NCBI GenBank assembly: GCA_009901575.1
Contig: WXYP01000001.1
Span: 1-64,000, forward strand
DNA from: Flavobacteriaceae bacterium R38
Lineage (GTDB): Bacteria; Bacteroidota; Bacteroidia; Flavobacteriales; Flavobacteriaceae
Reading direction: 5' to 3'
Length of the DNA: 64,000 nucleotides
Made by a program: the position numbers and the translations under genes
Part shown: piece by piece, positions 33,878 to 42,418 of the stretch
Numbering within the stretch: the stretch's first letter is position 1
How the letters are laid out: each line of letters opens with the position of its first letter
Notes under the pieces: generated by a model
The model's database searches: none
The model's input: the letters and a program-made list of their open reading frames with translations, nothing else
What the model was told of the DNA's origin: nothing

Positions 33878-36088
33878 ATGCGTATGAAATTAAGAAAGTT
33901 CCCATTTTTTAGACAACTAGATCAGATGGATTGTGGCCCGACTTGTCTTCGAATGGTAACTAAATTTCATGGACGATCCATCTCAATAGATACACTTAGG
34001 AAAAAAGCCAATATTACAAGAGAAGGAGTTTCTTTAGGAGGTATAGCAGAAGCGGCAGAAGATATTGGTTTCCATACTTTAGCGGTAAGTGTTGATTTTA
34101 AAACATTGGAAGAAGAAGTGCCTTTCCCTTGCATTGCGCATTGGAGGCAACGACATTTTGTTGTAGTCCACGAAATAAAAAAGGATACGGTATATGTAGC
34201 AGATCCTGCTCATGGACTTGTAAAATATAGTAAAGAAGACTTTGTAAAAGGATGGATAGGCAAGAATGCAGATATTGATAGCTCTGAAGGATATTTGTTA
34301 TTATTAGAGCCAACACCGGATTTTTACAATACAGATCCGGATGAAAAAAGGGAATACGGATTTAAATTTTTATTCTGGTATTTTAAGCCGTACAAGAAAT
34401 ATATTATACAACTTGTTCTGGGATTAATTGTAGGAAGCTTACTCCAGCTGGTTTTTCCTTTCTTAACGCAATCTGTTGTCGATTATGGGATCAACTATCA
34501 AAACATAAATTTTGTCTACTTAATACTCATAGCTCAATTGACATTGTTTATTTCTCAAACCACTGTAGAGCTCATAAGAGGATGGATTTTATTGCATATG
34601 ACTAGTAGGATTAATATCAATTTAATATCCGATTTTCTTATTAAACTAATGCGATTGCCGATTGCTTTTTTTGATTCAAAAAATACAGGTGATATTATTC
34701 AGCGTATTTATGATCATAATAGAATTCAAAGCTTCCTGTCGTCAACTACATTAAACACGTTGTTTTCTGCTTTTAATTTTGTTGTATTTGGAATAGTATT
34801 GATCTATTATAATCTTACAATTTTTACCCTGTTCTTTATAGGATCTGTTATTTATGTTGGATGGACACTCTTGTTTTTGAAAAAACGTGCAGAACTCGAC
34901 TATAAAAGATTCGATCAATCTTCGGATAATCAGAGTAGTTTATTTCAATTGATTTCGGGAATGCAGGAAATTAAATTGAATGGCTCAGAAAGAAGAAGAA
35001 GATGGGAGTGGGAAGCAATTCAAGTGCGATTATTTAAGATATCGATTAAAGGATTAGCATTATCACAGACTCAAAATACAGGAGGACAGTTTTTAAATGA
35101 ACTTAAAAACATATTGATCACTTTTATAGCTGCAAAGTCAGTAATTGATGGGGATTTGACTTTAGGAGCAATGCTTTCTGTTCAATATATCATTGGGCAA
35201 CTAAACTTGCCTATAAATAATTTTATCTCTTTTATACAAACAGGACAGGATGCTAAGATAAGTTTAGAACGTTTAGCTGAGATCCATATGAAAGATGATG
35301 AAGAAGATAAAAATGAAGATTATATAAAAGAATTACCTTCTGATAAAACTATAAAGGTTAAAGATCTTAGTTTTCGCTACGGAGGAGCCAGTTCTCCATG
35401 GGTTTTAGAAAATCTTAATTTTGAAATTCCGGAAGGAAAAGTAACTGCCATAGTAGGAGCTAGTGGTAGTGGTAAAACAACATTGATAAAACTACTGCTG
35501 AAATTTTATGAGCCTACCGAAGGAGAATTAGTTATAGGGAATACCAAACTCAACAATATGAGTACCAATACATGGCGTAAGGCTTGTGGATCTGTTATGC
35601 AGGATGGGTTTTTATTCGGAGATACTATTTCCAGGAATATCACCGAATCAGATTCTGAAGGAATAATAGATAAAGAACGTTTGTTGCATGCGGTTAATGT
35701 TGCTAATATTGAAGAGTTTATTGACGAATTACCTTCTGGTTTTAATACAAAAATAGGAAGTAGTGGTGTAAATATCAGTGGAGGGCAGAAACAACGAATA
35801 TTTATAGCAAGATCTGTATATAAAGATCCTAAATATATCTTTTTTGATGAGGCGACTAGTGCATTGGATGCTAATAATGAAAAGGTGATTATGGAGAACT
35901 TGCAAGAGTTCTATAAAGGAAAGACGGTTGTTGTTGTGGCTCATAGATTGAGTACGGTGAAAAACGCAGATCAAATTTTAGTTTTAGACAGCGGGAAGGT
36001 TATTGAGCAGGGAGATCATAAAGAGCTGACAGCTAAAAAAGGAACTTACTATACATTAGTAAAAAATCAATTGGAATTAGGAGATTAA
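33878..36088 (+). CDS. C39-peptidase-containing ABC transporter (PCAT), lanthipeptide export
   Basis: The 736-residue protein has an N-terminal C39 peptidase (about 1-150) with catalytic Cys19 in QMDCGPTCL, the oxyanion Gln13, His in RQRHFVVVH and the Asp of VADPAHG. Next comes a six-helix ABC transporter membrane domain (about 160-460) and an ATPase with Walker A GASGSGKTTL, signature ISGGQKQR and Walker B YIFFDEATSALD. Such transporters cut leaders after a double Gly and export the core. The neighbouring precursor has a Gly-Gly leader, so it is the likely substrate. It overlaps no gene and the HlyD gene starts one base after its stop. Confidence 0.93.
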   Translation: MRMKLRKFPFFRQLDQMDCGPTCLRMVTKFHGRSISIDTLRKKANITREGVSLGGIAEAAEDIGFHTLAVSVDFKTLEEEVPFPCIAHWRQRHFVVVHEIKKDTVYVADPAHGLVKYSKEDFVKGWIGKNADIDSSEGYLLLLEPTPDFYNTDPDEKREYGFKFLFWYFKPYKKYIIQLVLGLIVGSLLQLVFPFLTQSVVDYGINYQNINFVYLILIAQLTLFISQTTVELIRGWILLHMTSRININLISDFLIKLMRLPIAFFDSKNTGDIIQRIYDHNRIQSFLSSTTLNTLFSAFNFVVFGIVLIYYNLTIFTLFFIGSVIYVGWTLLFLKKRAELDYKRFDQSSDNQSSLFQLISGMQEIKLNGSERRRRWEWEAIQVRLFKISIKGLALSQTQNTGGQFLNELKNILITFIAAKSVIDGDLTLGAMLSVQYIIGQLNLPINNFISFIQTGQDAKISLERLAEIHMKDDEEDKNEDYIKELPSDKTIKVKDLSFRYGGASSPWVLENLNFEIPEGKVTAIVGASGSGKTTLIKLLLKFYEPTEGELVIGNTKLNNMSTNTWRKACGSVMQDGFLFGDTISRNITESDSEGIIDKERLLHAVNVANIEEFIDELPSGFNTKIGSSGVNISGGQKQRIFIARSVYKDPKYIFFDEATSALDANNEKVIMENLQEFYKGKTVVVVAHRLSTVKNADQILVLDSGKVIEQGDHKELTAKKGTYYTLVKNQLELGD

Positions 36089-37411
36089 ATGGCAGAAGAA
36101 GAAGAGAAAAAAAGAAAGAGAATTGACGAATTAGATGAGCGTTCAGACCAGGTGAAAGAAGTACTTGGTAAAGCTCCTAATTGGGTGATCCGATGGGGGA
36201 TAACTGTCGTTTTAATTATAGTAATGCTTGTTCTTATTGGAGCTGCATTGATAAGCTATAATGATATTTTATCATCTCAAATAGTTATTACTTCGGAGAA
36301 TCCACCGGTATATTTAGATGCTAAAACTACCGGTAGGTTAACTAATGTATTTGTTGAAGCCAATCAATCGGTAAAAGAAGGAGAGGTATTAGCAGAAATT
36401 GAAAATACAGCAAATTTTGACCATGTGTATTTATTGAAAGAAAAATTAGAAAATTTTTCTACAGATATAGATAATACGGTTTCTCTAAGTTCTTTATTTC
36501 CTTCTTTTTTAGAATTAGGCGATATACAGCTTGATTATGCAAACTTTTTAACAAATTATCAAACTTATATCTTATACTTAGCGCAAGAACCGGATAAGAA
36601 AGAAGCGAGAGGAATATCTAATTTAATAAGTACACAAAAAGAAGTATTAAAAAAACAACAAGAACAGCTAGATTACGAGAAAAAACAATTAGAAATAGCA
36701 GATACCAGGTTAGAGAGAGCACGTGATCTTTTAAATAAAGGTGTTTTTGCAACGGCAGATTTTGAAGATGAAGAAAATAGATTTCTTGCTGCAAGAACGC
36801 AATATGAAAATGCAAAAAATGCAATCTCTAATACTTTATTAGCCATTCAAAATAATAATAGTTCTTTAACACGAACAGACATACAAGGAATACAATCAAG
36901 TAATAGTAATAGACAAGCGTTAGAAATAGCTTATCAGCGATTAAAAAATTCGATCTTACAATGGGAGCAGACCTACATTCTAAAGAGTCCTATAAATGGT
37001 AAAGTAACTATTTTTGATAAATGGAATAAAAACCAAAATGTAAATCAAAACGAAACACTTTACACAATTGTCCCTAATGATCATGAAAAGTTGATAGGTA
37101 AATTAAATGTGCCTATCCAAAATTCGGGAAAGATAGAGATAGGTCAGCGTGTAATCATTAAATTGGCGAATTATCCTAGCCAGGAATGGGGGAGTCTCAA
37201 TGGGAAAATTGTAAACATTTCTGATGTTCCGAAAAGAGGAACTGAGCAAGCCCAGTATACTATTTATGTTGATATTAAGAATTTAATGACAACTTATAAA
37301 AAAGAAATAGAATTTAAGCAGGAAATGCAAGGAACAGCTGAAATTGTTTTAGAAGATTTAACAGTGCTTCAACGGATTTTCTACCAGTTACGGAGCATAT
37401 TTGACGAATAA
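36089..37411 (+). CDS. HlyD-family secretion adaptor protein
   Basis: The 440-residue protein has a charged cytoplasmic N-terminus, one membrane segment at about residues 32-56, a lipoyl-like half-motif (YLDAKTTGRLTNVFVEANQSVKEGEVLAEIEN), a long coiled-coil hairpin at about 175-260, the second lipoyl half and a beta-barrel domain (LKSPINGKVTIFDKWNKNQNVNQNETLY). It should link the C39 transporter to an outer-membrane channel. No TolC-like gene lies in the cluster, so a housekeeping TolC is inferred. It follows the transporter stop directly and converges on the precursor gene. Confidence 0.92.
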   Translation: MAEEEEKKRKRIDELDERSDQVKEVLGKAPNWVIRWGITVVLIIVMLVLIGAALISYNDILSSQIVITSENPPVYLDAKTTGRLTNVFVEANQSVKEGEVLAEIENTANFDHVYLLKEKLENFSTDIDNTVSLSSLFPSFLELGDIQLDYANFLTNYQTYILYLAQEPDKKEARGISNLISTQKEVLKKQQEQLDYEKKQLEIADTRLERARDLLNKGVFATADFEDEENRFLAARTQYENAKNAISNTLLAIQNNNSSLTRTDIQGIQSSNSNRQALEIAYQRLKNSILQWEQTYILKSPINGKVTIFDKWNKNQNVNQNETLYTIVPNDHEKLIGKLNVPIQNSGKIEIGQRVIIKLANYPSQEWGSLNGKIVNISDVPKRGTEQAQYTIYVDIKNLMTTYKKEIEFKQEMQGTAEIVLEDLTVLQRIFYQLRSIFDE

Positions 37412-37468
37412 TTAAATGCTTAGATTTTAGTGAAAATTTTAAGTTTCTTTTTAATTAACTAAAAACAT

Positions 37469-37522
37469 AATCTACAATTAGAGAAATCAACTTAAATAAA
37501 TCAATTTCTTTAACTGTAGATT
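37469..37522 (-). terminator. Long hairpin between the convergent HlyD and precursor genes
   Basis: Arms 37469-37487 and 37504-37522 pair over 19 bp with two mismatches that become wobbles on one strand or the other, with a 16-bp loop. On the - strand it is followed by ATGTTTTTAG, giving a moderate T tract. It probably ends the precursor transcript and perhaps also the HlyD one. Confidence 0.65.
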
Positions 37523-37553
37523 TGAATTAGAGCTGCTCTTTTATTTAATGAAG

Positions 37554-37805
37554 TTACTGACAAGGAAACTCACAGGAAAATACAAGCTGGGTTTCATTAG
37601 GATTGCAGCCTGCTGTGGCTGGACCACATCCATTTTCAGTAAGACAATTACAAGTTACTTCACAACCCAACTCAGGGCCTGTAAAAATGCATTGCGGATT
37701 TGTGGAAACATTCCCGTTGCCTCCTCCAGATAGCCTGGTAGAGTCTAATTTGGAAACCATACTCTTTTTTAAATCTAGTTTGGTATTAAACTTCTTTTTT
37801 TTCAT
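37554..37805 (-). CDS. Class I lanthipeptide precursor, double-glycine leader, Cys-rich core
   Basis: The 83-residue peptide starts MKKKKFNTKLDLKKSMVSKL, whose KLDLKK pattern fits the leader motif of Bacteroidota class I lanthipeptides (LxLxK), then DSTRLSGG, a double-glycine site at residues 27-28 for the C39 peptidase. The core (about 55 residues) has eight Cys (39, 48, 52, 54, 60, 67, 78, 82) and exactly eight Ser/Thr (34, 35, 42, 51, 56, 64, 72, 77), most preceding a Cys at short range. It lacks the FNLD box of nisin-type leaders. I do not recognise the core. It lies downstream of lanC and the split LanB genes, with a 212-bp gap that may carry its own promoter. No similar second precursor was seen. 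Confidence 0.88.
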   Translation of the reverse strand: MKKKKFNTKLDLKKSMVSKLDSTRLSGGGNGNVSTNPQCIFTGPELGCEVTCNCLTENGCGPATAGCNPNETQLVFSCEFPCQ

Positions 37806-37840
37806 AATAAAAAATTTAAAAAGTTGATAAATAATTTATG

Positions 37841-37857
37841 ACAGTAGCAATTACTGT
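37841..37857. promoter_or_regulatory. Inverted repeat upstream of the precursor gene
   Basis: ACAGTA-GCAAT-TACTGT is a 6-bp perfect inverted repeat lying 36 bp before the precursor start. It could be an operator or a 5' UTR hairpin. Such a short repeat may be chance in AT-rich DNA. Confidence 0.3.
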
Positions 37858-38017
37858 TAACTTTAAAATTCTTTATTGAAGGAGGGCAGAAACCTTTTTA
37901 TATTAAGATATATAAGACGAAAACTAATTCTTAATGTAAAAGTAAAATTAAATGACCTTGTATAAAAAATAATTACTTTATTTTAATGTTAAGTAGCTTT
38001 TAATCAACGTTTAACGT

Positions 38018-38917
38018 TTAATTTGTTTTTTGATATTTTTTCTTCGCCCATTCAGACTTATAATATCGATATAAAAAATCATAACAAACCATTTCGTGTA
38101 AACGATTGTTAGATTTGAATAAACGATTCATCAACATATGGATATAACTTCCCATAAGATTATTCAATTCCATTTGAAGCGTTCCGTTTTTATGATGTTC
38201 GAGTATACCTTGAGCTATACCTTCTATATTATTTTTGGTAGCATCAAAAATATCAAGGATGGGAGCAAAATCAGGGTTGTCTTCCCGGGTGAAAATCATG
38301 AAATCACTAATTTTTCCACGGGCATTTCTATATTTAGCATCCAATTGTTTTTTTAAAGGCCTGGACATTCCGAACTCGTTTCCAAAACCTGTTTTTAAAT
38401 TGTCCATTATAGTCAACTTCTCTTCATCAGAATATTGAAATACATTTAATAGATTTTCAATAGCTCTGATTCCAAATAACCAACGTATTTCTTCACCTTC
38501 ATCTCCTTCGATTAAATCAATAAAATCAGCTATCATTTGGCTGTCATAGAAAAATAATCTTTCAGACAATTCCATGGTATTTGTCCCATAACGTTCTAAT
38601 TCTCTTTGATAAGTATCTAATTGAACTTTCCACAGTAGATCTTGCTCAATATAAGTTTTAAAAGGAGCGTGAAGACTATTTACTATTTGTGAAACATGAG
38701 ATGGGTTACTATAATGAAAACGTACTCTTAAATGGTGTTTAGGATCTCCATAACGTATAAAAAACCATTGATTGATAAAACCTCCGTCCATCAATTGTTT
38801 AGCAATTGGGTTGATAATTTCGGTTAAGATTAAATCTGATGTTTTGGGGCCTGTATACAATTTATAGTACAACCAGCTATCTCCAATGATAAAACTTCTT
38901 TGAATATTATTTTGCAT
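38018..38917 (-). CDS. LanB elimination-domain protein (SpaB_C / thiopeptide-type biosynthesis protein)
   Basis: The 299-residue protein matches the stand-alone SpaB_C elimination domain: WLYYKLYTGPKTSDLIL at the start, INQWFFIRYGDPKHHLRVRFH and LLWKVQLDTYQRELERYG. In full-length LanB enzymes this C-terminal domain removes glutamate from glutamylated Ser/Thr to leave Dha/Dhb. Here it is a separate gene starting one base after the stop of the glutamylation-domain gene, so this is a split LanB, as described for pinensins and thiopeptides. It acts with the upstream protein on the precursor encoded next. Confidence 0.92.
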   Translation of the reverse strand: MQNNIQRSFIIGDSWLYYKLYTGPKTSDLILTEIINPIAKQLMDGGFINQWFFIRYGDPKHHLRVRFHYSNPSHVSQIVNSLHAPFKTYIEQDLLWKVQLDTYQRELERYGTNTMELSERLFFYDSQMIADFIDLIEGDEGEEIRWLFGIRAIENLLNVFQYSDEEKLTIMDNLKTGFGNEFGMSRPLKKQLDAKYRNARGKISDFMIFTREDNPDFAPILDIFDATKNNIEGIAQGILEHHKNGTLQMELNNLMGSYIHMLMNRLFKSNNRLHEMVCYDFLYRYYKSEWAKKKYQKTN

Positions 38918-38918
38918 C

Positions 38919-41159
38919 TTAATTTCCTTCTTTTTGGTCAGCTAATTTATTTTGATTGTAGAATGACAATACCACCTGGTTTGTGTAAAAGTTACCTTTA
39001 CTTTTAACAACACTGTCTTTGTCAAATAAGAACTCAGTAATTTTAAAACTAGGTCTCTTTTTTACAGTATCGAGAAGCATCCTTGCAGAAGTAAGATTAT
39101 TAAAATTAATTAATAATTCATTATCTCCGTCTGTTAACATCACATGACTGGGAATTCTTCGTTTGTCTAAAAAAGATTTTAATTCTGATTTTAGTTTATC
39201 ATCATCTTTAAAAACATTCAGTAAAGGTTCTATATCCTTCTTTTTGATATTCCAGTTGGCTTCTTGTAAAATCAGGTTCTTATACTCTATCCTGGGAATA
39301 AACTCATACTCGTTAGCAAAAGGTCCTGTGTTAAAGCCGATTCCACTTCGTATTCCTTGTGTTTGCATATCTGCCAGGAAATGATAAATAGGTAAAGAAT
39401 TAGCAGAATAGTTATGAGCATTTGTCAAATGAGGGATTACCTCTTTATTGGTTTTTTTAGACCTGAGTACAACTTTTCTATTGTTTTTAATAGATACCAT
39501 AAGGTCGTCTAATGGTAATTGTTGTTCCTCTTCTAATAGCGATTTAGCGAGATACGGAATCTCATATTTACGAAAAGCAGGTCTCATCAAAATGTTTCCT
39601 ACCCTGGATTCGGGTAAATGAACTATCTCTGCTAATATTTTATCGTTATTTATTTCTGCTTCAAGGTCAATAATAGATTGGGTATATTCGTTCAATGCCT
39701 GGTCTCCATGACAAAATCTTCCTAATAAATTTGCTGCACTGGAACCACCCGTACCCGAAAACTTAATTTTTTCTTCTCCGTCTATATGTAGTATTTCTAC
39801 CATAGTAGACATGGTGTCAGGAAGGTCATCCCATCCTTGTTCAAAGTTTTTGAAATCCTCATCGGTAAAAACAACAGAGTATGATTTATTTACAAAAGCA
39901 TCGATGAGTTTTTTCTGAACTAAACTATTAAAACTGCTCCAGCTAATTTCTGAGGCTCCGTTTGGAGTATTTCTTCCCGGAAGCACAATATCGTCTACTA
40001 ATGGACTCACATCTCCACTTCCCTGATTTTGCCGATAACCGACACCTATTTCTATATCTAATGCATTTGCCAATAATACTTCCCGTTCTTCATAACGTTC
40101 ATAAAAAGCATCTCTGAATTTTGTTAATGTAGTTTCTTTGTACGGTAATGAAATACTGTTAAGTATTGCCATTCCTTTTCTTACAGAATCAGTTACACTG
40201 GTACTTAAAACATTTTTTGAATACCCCAGTTCCATATCTGTTTGGAAAAGAAATTTTAATTCGAAAGAAGTATCAATTTCTTTCAAATAATTGCTCAATT
40301 CAATGTAGTCTGAAGTTTTGTTTCCTATTTTATTGTCAATAGAAGAGATGATGTCGTCAGCTTTAGTTAAGAAGTTTACTAATTTTTCAGTATTTTTTAA
40401 TTTTTTTAAAACAGATAATATTTGTTCCAGAAACTCCGGTCCGGAAACAGAAGGTTCTAGTTCACTGATTAAAAGTTGACTGGAAACTAATTCATCTATA
40501 AACTCAGTGGCTTCTTCAATTGTTATTTCATCATCGACCAGTTCATTTGCCAAATCCTTTAAATACGCTCCTTTTTTTGCTTTCCCGATAATATGCTGTA
40601 AGTACTCAGAATGATCAACAGCTACAATATGATGATGCCTTTTACTATTTACATATTTATATTCTACATACCTTAACTGATCTCCTGTTTTATAGATACT
40701 GGAATTTGGATAAAAAAGTAATTGCTCTTTTATTTCTTTTGTTTTGATAAGATCTTGTGACAATGCCACCAAATAATTCATATCTAAACGGGTATGTCTT
40801 TTATTAGCAGACGATTCTTTTAGCTCAATATTAGTTTCATCTCCAAAAGTTCCTAATGCACACCCTGCAAAGAGGCCAAAAGGGGTACATCGTGAAGACA
40901 TCCTGGCGATGTATTTCAATAAAGAATATTTAAGCTTATCATCTTTTTTATCCTGATTAGCCCATTTTATAGCTTCTTCACATAACGAAGGAGAAGCCAG
41001 GAAAACTGCTTCTCTTATAATTGGATTTTTAAAGACTTCTTTTATCTGCTCATCTGTAACTTTATCATTTTCTGTGAGCGATTCAAAAAAGTTTAGAGGC
41101 AATAAAGGAGTTCTTAAAACAAAGTTTGAAAAACTTTTATAAGGATTTTTAGTATTCAT
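38919..41159 (-). CDS. LanB glutamylation-domain protein (lantibiotic dehydratase N-terminal part)
   Basis: The 746-residue protein contains the LanB signature YIARMSSRCTPFGLFAG; Arg86 and Arg90 align with NisB Arg83 and Arg87, needed for glutamyl transfer. The rest follows the lantibiotic dehydratase N-domain (RHTRLDMNYLVALSQ, GRNTPNGASEISWSSFNSLVQ, SSAANLLGRFCHGD, HLPESRVGNILMRPAFRKYEIPYL). Full LanB enzymes are near 1000 residues; the missing elimination domain is the next gene. It should use glutamyl-tRNA to glutamylate core Ser/Thr. The gene follows lanC by 38 bp. Confidence 0.95.
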   Translation of the reverse strand: MNTKNPYKSFSNFVLRTPLLPLNFFESLTENDKVTDEQIKEVFKNPIIREAVFLASPSLCEEAIKWANQDKKDDKLKYSLLKYIARMSSRCTPFGLFAGCALGTFGDETNIELKESSANKRHTRLDMNYLVALSQDLIKTKEIKEQLLFYPNSSIYKTGDQLRYVEYKYVNSKRHHHIVAVDHSEYLQHIIGKAKKGAYLKDLANELVDDEITIEEATEFIDELVSSQLLISELEPSVSGPEFLEQILSVLKKLKNTEKLVNFLTKADDIISSIDNKIGNKTSDYIELSNYLKEIDTSFELKFLFQTDMELGYSKNVLSTSVTDSVRKGMAILNSISLPYKETTLTKFRDAFYERYEEREVLLANALDIEIGVGYRQNQGSGDVSPLVDDIVLPGRNTPNGASEISWSSFNSLVQKKLIDAFVNKSYSVVFTDEDFKNFEQGWDDLPDTMSTMVEILHIDGEEKIKFSGTGGSSAANLLGRFCHGDQALNEYTQSIIDLEAEINNDKILAEIVHLPESRVGNILMRPAFRKYEIPYLAKSLLEEEQQLPLDDLMVSIKNNRKVVLRSKKTNKEVIPHLTNAHNYSANSLPIYHFLADMQTQGIRSGIGFNTGPFANEYEFIPRIEYKNLILQEANWNIKKKDIEPLLNVFKDDDKLKSELKSFLDKRRIPSHVMLTDGDNELLINFNNLTSARMLLDTVKKRPSFKITEFLFDKDSVVKSKGNFYTNQVVLSFYNQNKLADQKEGN

Positions 41160-41197
41160 TCATATAAAATTTAAAATAATAAGGGAATTGATTCTGA

Positions 41198-42418
41198 CTA
41201 ACTTATCATTAAACATTCATCCCAATGCGATTCAAAATCAGAAATATGGTCAATAATGGTTAGTCCAATACCAGCTACCCCCTCTAATAAAGATATCCTG
41301 CCTTCCCAATCTTCATCTTTACCATTCCATTGTTTATAACCTGCTTTTCCATCTTCATGAATAGCCATTTTTAATCCGAAATCTATCCAATAATTGGCTG
41401 CTTCTTGAAACACAGGATCGCTGGTTTCTTTATATAAGCGATTAAATATTTGAGCGTTTCCGTAAGATCCGTGACATACCCCTGCATCTCTAATACCAGT
41501 ATCTTCTACCGTAGTTCTATTGGCTCCATGCTTGAGGATGTGCAAGGCTTTATCCTTTAATTCGTTGTCATTTAAAGTTAAAGAAGCTCTCCAGAATGCC
41601 AAACCTACTCCTAAATCTCCATAGCACCAAGCCAGACGACTTTTACTTTTTTCTTCTTTAGGCTCAGTAACCCAACTAGGGTATAAAGAATATAAACCTT
41701 CACCTTTTATTTCATGGCTTTGGATGTATTTTACAGCTCCGGTTAGTAATGGAGCAACACTTTCTTTGAAAGTCTCAATTTCATGGAGCTTAGCTAAAAA
41801 GATAACAATACTTGACATGCCATGAGATAAACTTAAATTATAGCCTCTTAAGCCTGTTTCCATATCTAAGCGAGACTCCCATTTTAATCCGTTACCGTCT
41901 GCATCTTCTTGAGCTGTTTCTTTTAAATAAGTAACCATCCTGGATAAGTATTCTTTGTAACGCTCTTTTAAATCGCCATCTTTTGTATTTCTATATCTTT
42001 TAAGAAAATAATAAGCATAACCTATACCCGCATGTAAAAAATCATATTGTCCTTGTTGCATATCGTAATCCATTACTCCTAAAAGGTATTCATCCAGATC
42101 TGACAGCAGTTCATCATTATCGGAATCCATAAAATCTTCTTCTAAAAGATGTTCGAAAACCCATCCTGCACCTGCTATGCCAGAACAATACGTAGGGAAT
42201 TGGTAGCCATTATTTATTCGATTCACAGCTTCTTCAAGAATATCAACACCTACATCAGCATGTTTGTCTGTGTCAAGGTATTTAGAATAGTAAAAATGAA
42301 ATAAAGCAATTCCTGAGATACCTGCTAAAACTCCTAATTGATCATTTTCTTTATATTCTTCTTTTAGAATCGTACTTATTTCTTTTAATTTTTCTTCTAG
42401 CTCAAGCTTATTTTTCAT
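41198..42418 (-). CDS. lanC: Lanthionine synthetase C-family cyclase
   Basis: The 406-residue protein has the LanC alpha/alpha-toroid motifs and all zinc ligands: Cys265 in RLAWCYGDLGVG, Cys315 and His316 in AGVCHGSYG, plus the likely acid/base His199 in LSLSHGMSS. These match NisC Cys284, Cys330, His331 and His212. It adds Cys thiols to Dha/Dhb to close (methyl)lanthionine rings. It is the first gene of the - strand lanC / lanB-N / lanB-C / precursor series, divergent from murI with 175 bp between starts. Confidence 0.95.
   Translation of the reverse strand: MKNKLELEEKLKEISTILKEEYKENDQLGVLAGISGIALFHFYYSKYLDTDKHADVGVDILEEAVNRINNGYQFPTYCSGIAGAGWVFEHLLEEDFMDSDNDELLSDLDEYLLGVMDYDMQQGQYDFLHAGIGYAYYFLKRYRNTKDGDLKERYKEYLSRMVTYLKETAQEDADGNGLKWESRLDMETGLRGYNLSLSHGMSSIVIFLAKLHEIETFKESVAPLLTGAVKYIQSHEIKGEGLYSLYPSWVTEPKEEKSKSRLAWCYGDLGVGLAFWRASLTLNDNELKDKALHILKHGANRTTVEDTGIRDAGVCHGSYGNAQIFNRLYKETSDPVFQEAANYWIDFGLKMAIHEDGKAGYKQWNGKDEDWEGRISLLEGVAGIGLTIIDHISDFESHWDECLMIS

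Follow-up and report, generated by a model that had tools for sequence, protein, structure and literature searches.

Candidate lanthipeptide precursors directly behind sensor-regulator genes in Flavobacteriaceae bacterium R38 suggest one assembly line for many peptides, some of them signals

The marine-type genome of Flavobacteriaceae bacterium R38 (98.8% complete) contains a class I lanthipeptide locus within the first 64,000 nucleotides of contig WXYP01000001.1, the whole analysed stretch of DNA which is referred to here as the window. Profile searches of the R38 contigs, which together with retrieved stretches underlie all genome-wide statements, detected LanB, LanC and a C39 protein only once each in this genome. 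Reading of the open reading frames (ORFs) at leader matches yielded 58 candidate precursors of 46-105 amino acids (aa), distributed over 28 islands on eight contigs. Furthermore, 16 of the 22 full-length genes for TPR-AraC regulators are followed by a precursor gene on the same strand at a distance of 86-353 bp, in 15 cases of 86-131 bp. The reading we prefer, with a probability of about 0.6, is that one class I machine serves many dispersed precursors and that a subset of the products is sensed by cognate TPR-AraC receptors. Modification in trans of most dispersed precursors is likely, as judged from sequence, and peptide sensing by TPR-AraC proteins is a tentative proposal. The initial annotation had described a class I cluster with split LanB and C39 exporter which should be working, and these parts stand; the picture of a self-contained cluster with one precursor gives way to that of one enzyme set with approximately 58 precursors plus a paired TPR-AraC family.

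The “class I lanthipeptide” leader model NF038153 matches many places in the R38 genome, and a custom leader alignment, termed A1, was built from these matches. When the genome was searched with A1, 59 matches reached E<=5, and for 54 of these E was at most 0.003; the scores are circular where ORFs correspond to A1 rows (33 ORFs), and 25 of the 58 candidate ORFs lie outside A1. Behind the leader, at least two Cys and at least two Ser/Thr residues are found in 56 of the 58 candidates. Weak calls are C7:2980-3270 and C3:321327-321488 (C3, C4, C6, C7 and C8 are contigs of R38, whose genome is labelled G000; L-numbers are retrieved loci). Two leader types occur, KxxIS in mostly unpaired and Cys-rich precursors and KxxIA in Thr/Pro-rich precursors mostly located behind TPR-AraC genes, and they may represent two functional classes.

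Across 199 genomes of the family, 18 with and 181 without LanB, leader matches follow the presence of LanB. With NF038153 (E<=0.01), matches were detected in 10 LanB-positive and two LanB-negative genomes (p=1e-10), and one of the latter two falls inside a 500-aa frame. The corresponding numbers for A1 are 12 and three (p=1e-12). Leptobacterium flavescens harbors 16 precursors and Kordia periserrulae (G179) at least 136, with 150 of its 249 candidates scored. In an AT-rich genome short ORFs are easily called, and most dispersed ORFs could be decayed or due to chance, leaving the cluster as the only real peptide source. This explanation is highly improbable in view of the three matching genomes among 181 without LanB, of core motifs and island positions which are common to different genera, and of an enriched upstream element (see below).

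The core motif N[ST]CPPPG is present in 24 peptides from 18 loci or genomes, some of these loci overlapping, and this family comprises precursors at LanB clusters as well as orphans. The motif of the cluster-local precursor itself, [ST]TxPxCIxTG, also occurs in clusters of Leptobacterium and Kordia; in the form STxPxCIxTGP it was met again in these clusters only among those examined, in line with the remark of the initial annotation that the product was not a recognized one. Several precursor islands keep the same position in another genus or species, namely at genes which we take, from the protein starts and general knowledge, to encode prephenate dehydratase (L035/L069), prfA-pyrF (L029/L071), ppk (L041/L072) and DAHP synthase-typA (L055/L074). 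In the retrieved regions, the neighbours of orphan precursors are mostly housekeeping or hypothetical genes, and no adjoining LanB or radical SAM enzyme for ribosomally synthesized and post-translationally modified peptides (RiPPs) was seen. All retrieved regions together contain two proteins with a CxxxCxxC motif, a MiaB-like one of 489 aa and a radical-SAM-like one of 296 aa, neither of which shows a RiPP-like pairing with a precursor. The precursors of L050 (G000 C8:196250-196492) and L040 (G000 C4:286517-286747), located on different contigs and equipped with different leaders, have a common core tail, DPYTDETAGCSNQCPTTGPG...IEILY, which may point to an exchange of leaders and cores by recombination.

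A different division of labour would be that LanB and LanC modify the cluster-local precursor and a few paralogues, and that most dispersed peptides are unmodified bacteriocins or pheromones with a double-glycine (GG) leader which share the C39 exporter only. This is unlikely, given that dispersed and local precursors have, beyond the GG site, the LxLxKx5L motif of class I LanB substrates (PMC7268733), that leader counts follow LanB, and that the cores are rich in Cys, Ser and Thr, with families of the N[ST]CPPPG type at LanB clusters and as orphans. In its favour, some dispersed cores hold one or two Cys only; the genome also encodes GG-leader peptides that lack the LxLxK motif (e.g. C6:398639-398887 and C3:114258-114494); and with a single C39 protein, all GG peptides use that exporter or none do. 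GG peptides of another leader type were also observed at L035 12259-12495 and L049 7640-7888 (LSKKQLRAINGG, LNKKEQTKVNGG); they would likewise need the single C39 exporter and are probably unmodified bacteriocin-like peptides. A point against the one-machine reading comes from Kordia periserrulae, which has several LanC-like and C39 genes, and the single-machine argument is therefore clean only in the R38 genome.

In the class II prochlorosins/SyncM of picocyanobacteria, a single synthetase acts on numerous dispersed precursors which share a leader and differ in their Cys/Ser/Thr cores, according to the abstracts of PMC10783134 and PMC9872173. As far as these abstracts describe that system, R38 resembles it in having a single enzyme set per genome and many scattered precursors whose leader is shared and whose cores are diverse. 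In contrast, the R38 enzymes belong to class I (tRNA-dependent LanB plus LanC) and the leader is of the LxLxKx5L rather than the Nif11-like type. With neither a class II LanM nor a Nif11 leader, the R38 system, as its sequences present it, is an analogue of the prochlorosin arrangement and not a member. The same abstracts contain no mention of a TPR-AraC partner.

The TPR-AraC proteins combine TPR repeats with an HTH_18 domain (Pfam). A hydrophobic segment is present at the N-terminus of many members, and 15 of the 16 paired proteins contain an internal hydrophobic, putatively transmembrane segment at approximately residues 385-430, with positive residues usually coming after it. Residues 38-336 of a Kordia member form a TPR superhelix in an AlphaFold model (pLDDT 85), residues 339-429 a long helix and residues 451-569 the AraC domain. 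We infer that the TPR domain is periplasmic and that one transmembrane helix anchors the protein. A Foldseek search with this model retrieved generic TPR proteins, Rap pheromone receptors among them, which is consistent with peptide sensing and not decisive.

In the RRNPP family of Bacillota, the receptors reside in the cytoplasm and respond to unmodified peptides that have been imported. The R38 TPR domain, in contrast, is predicted to be periplasmic and membrane-anchored and is joined to an AraC domain, the internal segment being at odds with a cytoplasmic receptor, and the accompanying peptide is predicted to be a lanthipeptide. The likeness lies in the propeptide gene adjoining a TPR receptor gene and in the match of the model to Rap; in RRNPP quorum sensing, propeptide and intracellular TPR receptor are encoded by adjacent genes (PMC10075063). 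TPR proteins have also been noted in two RiPP clusters of Bacteroidales, where pheromone-binding TPRs are cited (PMC10352776).

Numbers of TPR-AraC genes (E<=1e-60) are 15, 17, 6, 7, 7, 1 and 0 in relatives with LanB versus 1, 0, 0, 0, 0, 1 and 2 in relatives without. In a survey of 80 LanB genes from named genomes with flanks of up to 10 kb on either side, a TPR-AraC gene lies within the flank at 30 loci, and at 19 a precursor is located directly downstream of the regulator. A common order in Aquimarina is TPR-AraC, precursors, LanC, LanB, SpaB_C, and that in Kordia is LanC, LanB, SpaB_C, TPR-AraC, precursors, HlyD/C39. This vicinity to LanB loci in relatives assigns the regulator to the lanthipeptide system. 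The Aquimarina peptides adjoining the regulator are short and Cys-poor and often start with GGDCLPT or GGSSLP. At L066 5681-9496 (G138 C28), a second LanC, precursors and TPR-AraC were found without an adjoining LanB, presumably a satellite cluster which borrows the LanB.

Regulator and peptide also vary together. Over 40 regulator-peptide pairs, the distance of the sensor domain correlates with that of the core (r=0.73) and still does so after controlling for the DNA-binding domain (r=0.53), whereas the DNA-binding domain shows no correlation with the core once the sensor is controlled (-0.11). Within the R38 genome alone (16 pairs), the sensor-core values are 0.31 and, after control, 0.25.

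A 14-bp element, CKTAATTTATAAAT, was found among 15 regulator-precursor intergenic stretches, usually 68-98 bp (about 70-100) before the precursor start, with a score of 183 bits versus 138 +/- 4.4 in 30 shuffled sets. A palindromic operator was rejected, being weaker than this non-palindromic motif (148 vs. a null of 120, sd 5.5). With a model of nine paired sites, the element was detected at 12 bits in front of seven of 42 unpaired precursors and three of 151 upstream regions of other genes (p=0.001), and at 14 bits in four of 42 versus none of the 151 controls. Some unpaired precursors are therefore tied to the same regulation.

Several observations weigh against the preferred reading. The window cluster contains no TPR-AraC gene and has no good copy of the element upstream of its precursor, LanC and C39 genes. 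Six of the 22 R38 TPR-AraC genes have no paired precursor, and Leptobacterium flavescens carries tandem arrays of seven (L064 5537-17679) and five (L063 10344-19290) TPR-AraC genes without recognizable precursors between them. The Cys content of paired peptides is lower than that of unpaired ones (9.2% vs. 12.7%), some paired peptides have one or two Cys, and paired leaders show KxxIA more often than KxxIS; some of these peptides may therefore not be LanB substrates. In addition, the sensor-leader correlation equals the sensor-core correlation, so that much of the co-variation is joint inheritance of the pair, and TPR folds resemble those of numerous unrelated proteins that bind peptides.

The TPR-AraC proteins could be ordinary local regulators, or sensors of something else, with the peptide as a regulated product only, e.g. 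a bacteriocin answering envelope or nutrient cues. The genes without a precursor, the many ligands bound by TPR superhelices and the equal leader correlation speak for this explanation, which concerns the signalling half only and is compatible with modification in trans. It is nevertheless somewhat unlikely, since the adjacency in 16 of 22 cases, with one regulator per peptide, fits cognate pairs better, the core tracks the sensor and not the DNA-binding domain, and the expansion of the regulators is mainly seen in LanB-positive genomes.

For the preferred reading of one machine and cognate receptors, the following course can be proposed. Going by conserved residues and by what is known of the families, LanB would transfer glutamate from glutamyl-tRNA onto Ser/Thr residues in the precursor. 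The glutamate would be eliminated by the separate SpaB_C protein and the thioether rings closed by LanC, and C39-ABC/HlyD would cleave at the GG site and carry the product out of the cell. The single enzyme set would modify the approximately 58 same-leader candidate precursors in trans, and the single C39 exporter would also export the dispersed peptides. A subset of precursors would be expressed from units consisting of a TPR-AraC regulator and then the peptide; once exported, the peptide would be recognized by its cognate regulator via the periplasmic TPR domain, and the regulator would act through the upstream element to switch on its own peptide gene as well as some unpaired precursors. 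In its fullest form, a multichannel lanthipeptide signalling in Flavobacteriaceae, in which one enzyme set and exporter supply dozens of ringed peptides and about 16 periplasmic TPR-AraC receptors each read their own peptide and induce their own and wider precursor genes, the proposal is conceivable and slightly more speculative than peptide sensing as such.

The genes of the window locus are listed in Table 1. All genes named by the initial annotation are present and intact, and domain E-values together with the presence of the same genes in Leptobacterium flavescens exclude chance assignments. The precursor, for which no coordinates had been given, is encoded downstream of lanC, lanB and spaBC on the minus strand, and the two strands converge between 37411 and 37554.

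Table 1. Genes and leader region of the lanthipeptide locus (33878-42418), in window positions
Feature	Position	Strand	Evidence
C39 peptidase-ABC exporter, 736 aa	33878..36088	+	PF03412 (Peptidase_C39, E=2e-37), PF00664 (ABC_membrane), PF00005 (ABC_tran)
HlyD-family membrane fusion protein, 440 aa	36089..37411	+	Pfam HlyD_3
Cluster-local precursor, 83 aa, leader MKKKKFNTKLDLKKSMVSKLDSTRLSGG	37554..37805	-	NF038153, A1; core kept in Leptobacterium and Kordia
Leader region, LxLxKx5L motif and GG site	37722..37805	-	motif as in PMC7268733
Stand-alone glutamate-elimination protein (SpaB_C / Lant_dehydr_C), 299 aa	38018..38917	-	PF14028 (E=1e-73), TIGR03891
LanB glutamylation half, 746 aa	38919..41159	-	PF04738 (E=7e-142)
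LanC cyclase, 406 aa	41198..42418	-	PF05147 (E=9e-48)

The residues expected of active enzymes are conserved, as the initial annotation had partly noted. R86, R90, T92 and D126 of LanB are invariant in an alignment of nine LanBs, as are R55 and H260 among nine SpaB_C proteins. LanC has the zinc ligands C265, C315 and H316 plus H199, and the C39 protease the catalytic C19, H93 and D109. In PDB 9g04 and 5ehk, the glutamylation half aligns with LanB along its length and the C-terminal part with SpaB_C, and LanC is similar to the LanC-like chain 8byk and to NisC 2g02. The precursor scores 20.6 bits against NF038153, slightly below the cut-off of 22, and E=1.6e-8 against A1, in whose training set it is itself contained. 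Its core has eight Cys and eight Ser/Thr, and as the leader reads LSGGG, the cleavage site could lie one residue further on. An ORF at 37548-37733 on the plus strand was rejected as a second peptide because of its antisense overlap with the true precursor.

The locus is flanked by housekeeping genes (a bamA-like Omp85 gene, two OmpH/Skp genes, NAD kinase, glutamate racemase, DHFR). In Leptobacterium flavescens (L059), the same arrangement lies between a glutamate-racemase-like gene and OmpH-like genes, and its LanB is 76% identical to that of R38; owing to this shared placement the locus was probably inherited within the genus. An ORF of 110 aa with a LytTR-like look overlaps the SpaB_C end there (L059 10031-10363) and is absent from the window cluster.

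Taken alone, the locus is an ordinary class I set: LanB glutamylation and elimination functions are present on two proteins, next to LanC with three zinc ligands and a precursor with leader and a Ser/Thr and Cys core. Such sets are already known in Bacteroidota, where class I precursors with an LxLxKx5L leader ending in GG, C39 proteases and split LanBs have been described (Walker et al. 2020, PMC7268733), as the initial annotation had stated for the latter two. The window locus shares the leader motif, GG site, C39 transporter, split LanB and LanC; unlike the systems of that survey, which was limited to seven genes around LanC, R38 has 57 further candidate precursors elsewhere and an associated TPR-AraC family. 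The pinensins of Chitinophaga pinensis are likewise of class I, from Bacteroidota and made with a split LanB (PMC7268733). For other Bacteroidota, co-expression in E. coli has made use of the native GluRS/tRNA-Glu pair (PMC9993889).

The abundance of precursors in Kordia has already been published. The TrRiPP survey (PMC11118758) predicts as many as 176 RiPP precursors in a single Bacteroidota genome, with Kordia rich in lanthipeptide and radical SAM-type precursors, and proposes in general that precursors far from enzymes may use ProcM-like enzymes; its passages on precursors name no single class I machine, and its main text makes no mention of regulators. No description of a TPR-AraC regulator paired with a precursor was found in the literature searched, and one may exist in Pedobacter lanthipeptide work. 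Apparently new are this pairing and a class I split-LanB analogue of prochlorosins with a receptor-like partner.

If LanB is as tolerant as the precursor set implies, it would be a useful class I enzyme for peptide libraries. For prochlorosin-type libraries, the abstract of PMC10783134 states that the “biological function is unknown”. A class I analogue whose peptides come with a predicted receptor would offer a direct genetic route to the purpose of one-enzyme libraries and, if the proposed sensing is true, would assign a class of ligands to the membrane TPR-AraC regulator family.

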